Source: a virus. Taken from it: DNA of 28,526 bases. Below are positions 27,382 through 28,264 of the stretch, one piece after another (positions within the stretch are counted from its first letter, which is position 1; each line of letters opens with the position of its first letter). The notes beneath the pieces are model-generated. The model worked only from the letters and a program-made list of their open reading frames with translations. It searched no databases and was not told the origin of the DNA. Location: the IMG/VR virus record IMGVR_UViG_3300027793_000235, positions 1-28,526 of that record. One strand, written 5' to 3'. The translations under genes were made by a program, and so were the position numbers.

Positions 27382-27417
27382 TATGACCTATATCACAATT
27401 TCCTCGGCGTGTCGGAA

Positions 27418-27446: not shown

Positions 27447-27503
27447 TCTCCCCGTCATCAGATATTCGCAAGATTATCCAAGACACGCCCTAGACGGGCA
27501 GAC

Positions 27504-27532
27504 TTGACAAGATAAGTTGAGTCTGATAAGAT
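27504..27532 (+). promoter_or_regulatory. Sigma-70-type promoter P2
   Basis: TTGACA (27504-27509), a 17-base spacer and TAAGAT (27527-27532). The -10 matches four of six consensus bases. The start would be near 27539, the 5' end of the structured-RNA candidate. Confidence 0.7.
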
Positions 27533-27540
27533 AGGGCTCA

Positions 27541-27635
27541 CAAGTAAATAGAGAGAGATAGTCGGGCAGGATACGCCCCACGATAAGACGGGTCGCCCGT
27601 CGGGATACCGCTAGACTATCTCCCTCGCTTACTTG
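27541..27635 (+). ncRNA. Candidate structured non-coding RNA, multibranch
   Basis: CAAGTAA (27541-27547) pairs with TTACTTG (27629-27635). Next, GAGAGAGATAGTC (27551-27563) pairs with GACTATCTCCCTC (27614-27626) at 12 of 13 positions. Inside this basal stem are two hairpins: GGGC-AGGATAC-GCCC (27564-27578) and GACGGG-TCG-CCCGTC (27587-27601). The predicted P2 start falls within a few bases of the 5' end. The 3' arm overlaps the P3 -35, so no terminator is evident after it. It lacks a T-loop and is not a tRNA. I do not recognise a known family. Confidence 0.6.
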
Positions 27636-27661
27636 ACAAGCACTAAGCACTATGATATACT
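27633..27661 (+). promoter_or_regulatory. Extended -10 sigma-70-type promoter P3
   Basis: TTGACA (27633-27638), a 17-base spacer and TATACT (27656-27661), with TGA before the -10 as an extended -10 element. The start is near 27668, giving a short leader of about 23 bases to the 109-residue gene. The -35 overlaps the closing stem of the structured-RNA candidate. Confidence 0.8.
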
Positions 27662-27690: not shown

Positions 27691-28020
27691 ATGCCGAGCC
27701 CCTACGCGGGGTCGGGTAGTATAGTTAAGACACCGCCTACCATTAAGGCTAGCAAGCCTTGGGGAAAGCGACACTACAACCTAACGGGCGCACAATGCTC
27801 ACCCGTAGTTATTACCGATAGGCAGGGCAACACGCGAGTTGTCGCACCCCTTGTAGTCGGTAGCGTAGTTCGCCTAGCCCGTAAGTCGCACAAGGCTATC
27901 ATGGCAGGGGAACGCTCAACTACGCCCGACTTGACCGAAGCACAGCAGGACGCTATACTAGCGCAACTACACGCTAACGCGCCTAAACGGGAGCAAGCGT
28001 TCAACATACACGATAAATAG
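27691..28020 (+). CDS. Hypothetical protein, first rightward gene
   Basis: 109 residues from an ATG behind AGAGAGAGGA, seven bases away. The N-terminal half is basic and rich in Pro, Ser and Thr (PSPYAGSGSIVKTPPTIKAS, then KPWGKRHYNLTGAQCS). A short beta stretch follows (PVVITDRQGNTRVVAPLVVG, then SVVRLARKSHKAI), and the C-terminus is a helix (LTEAQQDAILAQLHANAPKR). No family recognised. It is served by P3 and probably by P1 and P2. Codon choice is more GC-rich than in the late operon. An early host-modifying or regulatory role is typical for such a position, but unproven. Confidence 0.7.
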   Translation: MPSPYAGSGSIVKTPPTIKASKPWGKRHYNLTGAQCSPVVITDRQGNTRVVAPLVVGSVVRLARKSHKAIMAGERSTTPDLTEAQQDAILAQLHANAPKREQAFNIHDK

Positions 28021-28200: not shown

Positions 28201-28246
28201 GTCGCGCACACCTAACGGGTGCGAGGGTTCAAGACCCTAGCGCGAC
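28201..28246 (+). ncRNA. Candidate three-way-junction RNA with tRNA-like T-arm
   Basis: GTCGCGC (28201-28207) pairs perfectly with GCGCGAC (28240-28246), seven pairs like a tRNA acceptor stem. Within it are CACC-TAACG-GGTG (28209-28221) and AGGG-TTCAAGA-CCCT (28224-28238). The last loop matches the seven-base TTCRANN T-loop. With no D-arm or normal anticodon arm it is not a normal tRNA. A further hairpin, GCGG-AGATA-CCGC (28249-28261), follows. Confidence 0.5.
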
Positions 28247-28264
28247 ACGCGGAGATACCGCAAC

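Follow-up and report, generated by a model that had tools for sequence, protein, structure and literature searches.

Organisation of the locus

The window, i.e., the whole stretch of 28,526 nucleotides that was analysed, carries three tandem promoters, a structured RNA and a gene of unassigned function (gene 1). P1, P2 and P3 and their start sites are predictions by consensus match. The features are as follows:

27382–27397, + strand: CRP/GlxR-type palindrome TATGACCTATATCACA, with one mismatch to TGTGA-N6-TCACA; its centre is at about -63 of P1
27418–27446, + strand: predicted promoter P1, TTGACA-17-TATAAT, matching the consensus at 12 of 12 positions
27482–27489, + strand: motif GACACGCC, 14 nt upstream of the P2 -35 box
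27504–27532, + strand: predicted promoter P2, TTGACA-17-TAAGAT, 10 of 12 positions, TG before the -10; predicted start at about 27540
27540–27550, + strand: initially transcribed tail ACAAGUAAAUA; A-x-A-A-x-U-x-A-A-U-A is nearly invariant across the RNA family
27541–27635, + strand: structured RNA, a basal stem of 7 + 3 + 9 pairs followed by a bulged apical core, from folding and covariance models
27576–27604, + strand: apical core, CCC (27576–27578) paired with GGG (27602–27604), 8-nt bulge CACGAUAA (27579–27586) and hairpin with UCG triloop (27587–27601)
27633–27661, + strand: predicted promoter P3, TTGACA-17-TATACT, 11 of 12 positions, with TG; the first three bases of its -35 box pair in the 3' arm of the RNA
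27691–28020, + strand: gene 1, 109 aa, function unassigned, motif PYxGSGSI; located downstream of the RNA in relatives

The adjacent terminase gene encoded 622 aa and was assigned to phrog_38, terminase large subunit. Comparison of gene 1 proteins with Pfam and PHROGs produced no credible match, RNA-binding domains included, and no terminator-like site was found on the + strand between the RNA element and the end of the window. Related viral loci were gathered through the terminase (80), through gene 1 (8) and through an alignment of gene 1 (37), many of them being overlapping pieces of the same contigs; the RNA family was found in roughly 45 related phage contigs. Gene 1 came next after the RNA in almost every RNA-bearing locus, the two exceptions by tblastn being L139, which was cut near the RNA, and L065, where the following gene had a different N-terminus. 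By terminase, the closest deposited genomes (78% identity) were OX376640 and OX376641; the latter is named LanE43-AprF5, as is one member of a pair of phages obtained with strain LanE-43 of 'Ca. Planktophila' as host (PMC10202952). Judging from this terminase kinship, the window phage and its relatives are probably freshwater phages, with very abundant lake actinobacteria as hosts.

Several short motifs accompanied the promoters. The motif GGCGTGTC/GACACGCC was located near each tandem promoter (27406–27413 and 27482–27489 in the window, as well as in relatives), in reverse orientation just before the -35 box of P1 and in forward orientation 13–16 nt upstream of the -35 boxes of P2 and P3, relatives included; it is a possible activator or repressor site. 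The -35 boxes themselves sat within the palindrome ACTTGACAAGT (the 27504 and 27633 regions of the window, and many relatives), which may be a repressor operator. Of 46 related loci, 18 had exact TGTGA-N6-TCACA sites in the intergenic region, 26 in all where 0.005 were expected, and only two such sites lay elsewhere in 173 kb; in some relatives one CRP/GlxR-type site preceded each tandem promoter. These sites suggest that phage transcription is tied to host cAMP-CRP/GlxR.

Structure of the RNA in the window

The + strand of 27541–27635 folded with a minimum free energy of -41.1 kcal/mol, compared with -24.5 ± 3.6 for shuffled sequences (z = -4.58; 0 of 200 shuffles as good), which bore out the closed fold proposed by an earlier, sequence-only reading of this DNA. 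Its count of 19 pairs for an interrupted basal stem was also exact: 27541–27547/27629–27635 (7 pairs), 27551–27553/27624–27626 (3) and 27555–27563/27614–27622 (9). As sequence geometry, the ends were placed correctly too; the predicted +1 of P2, at about 27540, falls one base before the helix, while the last base of the 3' arm, 27635, lies within the -35 box of P3 (TTGACA, 27633–27638).

The same reading had two GC-rich hairpins branching from the stem. The hairpin with a three-base loop was found (27587–27601, GACGGG-UCG-CCCGUC), but the other (27564–27567/27575–27578, GGGC/GCCC) was one among several equal-energy solutions and was not upheld. On a slightly longer segment, the multibranch form and an unbranched form, in which CCC/GGG closes the 8-nt bulge, both reached -42.2. 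Homologues preferred the unbranched fold, i.e., a long stem that bears a helix, then a conserved 7–8 nt bulge and a GC hairpin. In L122 the closing pairs changed from the CCC/GGG of the window type to CCU/AGG. Subtype C lacked the GGGC/GCCC hairpin, which the multibranch form requires; the unbranched fold was therefore favoured, and the branching detail proposed earlier is probably wrong.

Covariation among related phages

Eight sequences of a single subtype, the window not among them, were used to build a covariance model (R1), which had a sole match in the 28.5 kb of the window, on the + strand and over the full model length (E = 0.0067). It also matched upstream of gene 1 on the transcribed strand of numerous further loci (lowest E, 1e-28), and other type A members, likewise outside its training, were matched at 1e-4 to 3e-3. 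A second model (R2) had a training set of 32 matches that included the window, whose value as a member of that set was 2.2e-10; this model found untrained members of subtype C (L130, 4e-8; L052, 5e-6; L126, 9e-5; L068, 1e-3; L122, 0.03).

Covariation had been set beforehand as the test that could refute an RNA at this position. Across 30 distinct sequences, in an alignment that was fitted to the model and leans towards the structure, standard pairing occurred in 93.8% of pair cells, against 66.8% when shuffled and 37–42% when partners were slid; two-sided changes affected 30 of 34 pairs, and the covariation score was 0.623 (shuffled, 0.200 ± 0.012; slid, no more than 0.115). An unfitted MAFFT alignment of 8 members contained compensated changes in 22 of 34 pairs, and a core alignment of 13 members over three subtypes in 11 of 11. 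Compensatory changes were abundant, strongly favouring an RNA; indeed, the covariation is overwhelming and the segment is an RNA under selection for structure.

The strand was indicated by wobble pairs. There were 111 G-U pairs on the + strand versus 32 A-C mismatches, in an alignment biased to + strand pairing, and column 59-81 was U-G in 24 of 30 sequences; this excess points to a + strand RNA. Folding energy was lower on the + strand in 20 of 32 comparisons, which is too weak alone, the G-U excess being the better indicator. One strong copy was present per searched record, including seven records of 39.3–40.9 kb. Some B' members had a weak echo after P2 (E about 0.5–3), which looks like a degenerate duplicate.

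Consensus anatomy and subtypes

Read from 5' to 3', the consensus opens with the nearly invariant tail, at or just after the start, and continues into a long stem of variable sequence (about 12 to 26 pairs, varying about twofold in length). A small helix follows, then a short internal loop opening with an invariant A, and lastly a helix of ~3–7 pairs, a 7–8 nt bulge and a GC hairpin with a UCG triloop, the triloop being conserved in types A and B. The bulge was AGUAGCA or AGAAGCA in most members, CUAGAUAA in the nearest relatives of the window and CACGAUAA in the window itself. Compensated forms of the GC hairpin included CGGG/CCCG, CGAG/CUCG, UAGG/CCUA and ACCC/GGGU, and the tail changed together with the -35-proximal sequence (ACAAGU-ACUUGAC; ACUGAAU-AUUUGGU; AUUAAAU-AUUUGAU). 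By covariation, the whole element is one unbranched interrupted stem of 84–130 nt, in which the bulged apical core and the initial 11 bases of the transcript are retained while the outer stem varies freely.

Two further likenesses were considered and dropped. The GATTAGATAC of one subtype resembles the 790 loop of 16S rRNA, and this was not kept in other subtypes; a sigma-dependent pause signal in the conserved tail was discarded after inspection by eye revealed no -10-like hexamer with A2 and T6.

In subtypes A (to which the window belongs), B and D, the additional promoter P3 starts in the 3' arm, such that the same bases are doubly used, in RNA pairing and in the upstream region of P3; a promoter and at least 40 nt then lie between the hairpin and the start codon of gene 1. 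The 3' arm of subtypes B' and C contains no promoter, and their hairpin leads straight into the ribosome-binding site of gene 1. The gap from the -10 hexamer to the element was 6–8 nt in A/B, 10–12 nt in B' (where the tail is unpaired and the stem has up to ~26 nearly uninterrupted pairs) and ~60 nt in D, where another hairpin precedes the element. In every subtype the element was promoter-proximal and headed the divergent, rightward operon. Since ~60 nt separate it from the -10 in D, the element need not lie at the extreme 5' end; coincidence with a predicted start site is common, not obligatory.

These arrangements also bear on the function suggested by the sequence-only reading. The proposal that P3 output competes with RNA formation for DNA that they share is weak, because folding of the transcript leaves the DNA unoccupied and because a promoter is missing from the 3' arm in B' and C. 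The idea of a dedicated RNA survives insofar as the RNA is evolutionarily maintained, belongs to the + strand and begins at or near a tandem promoter start. A free sRNA or decoy is unsupported, however, since no intrinsic terminator follows the RNA and the B'/C hairpin runs into the gene-1 ribosome-binding site; the RNA may bind polymerase, as that reading also suggested. Unless processed, the segment is, as far as its sequence context indicates, a leader segment.

Other RNA elements nearby

Downstream of gene 1, a tRNA-like element of 46–51 nt was observed in the window (28201–28247, + strand) and in L111, L113–L115, L119, L120, L122, L126, L065, L068, L023 and L090 (the isolated Planktophila phage F5). 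Its 7-bp acceptor stem covaries (GTCGCGC/GCGCGAC, GTCGTAG/CTACGAC, GTCCTAG/CTAGGAC, GCCCCGC/GCGGGGT); its T-arm has a tRNA-like GTTCRA loop, a single small hairpin replaces the D and anticodon arms, and CCA is not encoded. ARAGORN reported none in the loci scanned, and a reversed-sequence control over 1.1 Mb gave 0 matches.

Four loci with near-identical terminase (L003, L004, L005 and L009) had a different leader. This was a strongly folded, apparently covarying RNA before a gene (GCCUAG...CUAUGUAGG...GGGCGCGGGUAGGUGGG), about 900–1080 nt upstream of the terminase start on the opposite strand; Rfam gave no match to the copies in L004 and L009. It seems that leader RNAs are exchanged in modular fashion.

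Database searches

Rfam covariance models, those of 6S RNA, phage pRNA and riboswitches included, had no match to the window, either at gathering thresholds or at E ≤ 5, and against the relatives produced only a sub-threshold microRNA match (E = 0.12). BLAST of the RNA region, of the corresponding regions of relatives and of gene 1 against 50,697 phage records returned no match; hence, the RNA is invisible by sequence in deposited phages. The core pattern occurred twice in 84,980 prokaryote genomes, both matches being judged chance by the covariance model, and the literature covered by the search contained no published freshwater or actinophage leader RNA. The element can be regarded as a new RNA family of an already known kind, absent from Rfam, of which the dual-use 3' arm is a variant feature.

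Lakes commonly contain phages of this group, yet little is known of their transcription programme. A covarying RNA heading a main operon provides a concrete, testable handle on phage transcription: either phage leaders in Actinobacteria can steer polymerase by a novel means, or the RNA is a novel signal for mRNA processing. Its consensus is clear enough for a family model and for searches in infection transcriptomes.

Possible functions

The preferred reading, held tentatively and at somewhat less than even chance, is a cis-acting leader of the rightward operon, the core of which is recognised on the nascent transcript and alters elongation. A host-type polymerase would read the operon from P1 and P2, transcribing the leader; the apical core would be recognised while nascent, by the polymerase or by a travelling host or phage factor; and the bound core would alter elongation (through anti-pausing or antitermination) across the long operon, following the logic of HK022 put and lambda nut. 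That something recognises the core is suggested by its conserved unpaired bases, conservation that is not found in the stem, while nascent recognition and an effect on elongation are suggested by an element that is promoter-proximal, unterminated and also placed away from the extreme 5' end. The 'early' status of the operon is assumed here, and the effect on elongation is what we infer. Covariation, the conserved bulge and tail, promoter-proximity, the single copy and the lack of a terminator behind the element are in favour of this reading. Against it, P3 in A, B and D would make gene-1 mRNA without the element, and put has two stem-loops in two copies, where here there is one bulged stem in one copy. 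When the rightward arm was scanned in two genomes, terminator-like sites were few and close in number to the shuffle mean, so that a need for antitermination is not visible. That the RNA is a polymerase-modifying actinophage leader, acting alone or with a host factor, with put-analogous antitermination or anti-pausing, an independent fold and a 3' arm that doubles as upstream sequence for the promoter that follows, is rather unlikely.

A role in mRNA handling, with the hairpin stabilising the 5' end of the early mRNA, serving as a site for its processing by RNase III, or both, is somewhat unlikely; mature mRNA would then start in or after the 3' arm. The stems of B' would make a good double-strand substrate, having up to ~26 nearly uninterrupted pairs where RNase III needs ~20 or more stacked pairs, while that of the window is interrupted (7 + 3 + 9). 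In the window, pairing of the 5' end sets in at about +2, and several relatives also have small hairpins after P1 in the alignment; yet the tail is unpaired in B', and in D, with ~60 nt between the -10 and the element, 5'-end protection would be lost. Such a role would account for the long stem, but stem length varies about twofold, and the conserved bulge, UCG loop and 11-base tail are left unexplained. A further reading is translational control of gene 1, in which the leader is an operator for the gene-1 product or for a host ribosomal or RNA-binding protein. Translational control is improbable: gene 1 lies next downstream in almost every RNA locus and the hairpin of B' and C stops just before the ribosome-binding site, but in A, B and D a promoter and at least 40 nt intervene before the start codon, P3 transcripts bypass the leader, and gene-1 proteins have no credible RNA-binding domain match.

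Release of the segment as a trans-acting RNA (an sRNA, a decoy or a polymerase-binding RNA) is equally doubtful. The element is compact and stable, with a conserved core and one copy per searched record, and in A and B its 5' end falls at a promoter start; set against this, the window has no terminator at the 3' end, the element of B' and C is fused to the gene-1 ribosome-binding site, and the core pattern had no true homologue in the 84,980 bacterial and archaeal genomes. An element acting as DNA, the inverted repeat being an operator, a cruciform or a packaging or replication site, is very improbable. ACTTGACAAGT palindromes do enclose the -35 boxes, and the terminase gene lies nearby, but G-U wobble pairs are conserved on the + strand, the conserved bulge is asymmetric, the position is fixed downstream of a promoter and the sequence of the outer repeat is unconserved.

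Comparison with known systems

The early region of T7 has tandem A1-A2-A3 promoters and intergenic sites cut by RNase III. The present locus is similar in that three tandem strong host promoters head an operon with an irregular hairpin in its leader; it differs in that the hairpin lies between P2 and P3 and its apical bulge is conserved in sequence. Lambda nut comprises boxB, a 15-nt hairpin with a GNRA-like loop, together with boxA, and needs N. Both are leader RNA hairpins of an early operon; here, however, there is a UCG triloop (types A and B) rather than a GNRA-like pentaloop, a bulge of 7–8 nt, and no known N gene.

The put RNA of HK022 is ~70 nt long, forms two stem-loops, is present in two copies per genome (left and right early operons), binds the zinc-binding domain of the E. 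coli polymerase beta' subunit and suppresses termination (PMC9378689). Like putL, the element described here is a structured RNA right after an early phage promoter ('early' being assumed here), with no terminator, at the head of a long operon. Unlike put, it is one unbranched interrupted stem of 84–130 nt with a bulged core, not two stem-loops, and has one strong copy per searched record, not two, in phages of a probable actinobacterial host. By analogy, the element is put- or nut-like in its logic, and is not a member of put.
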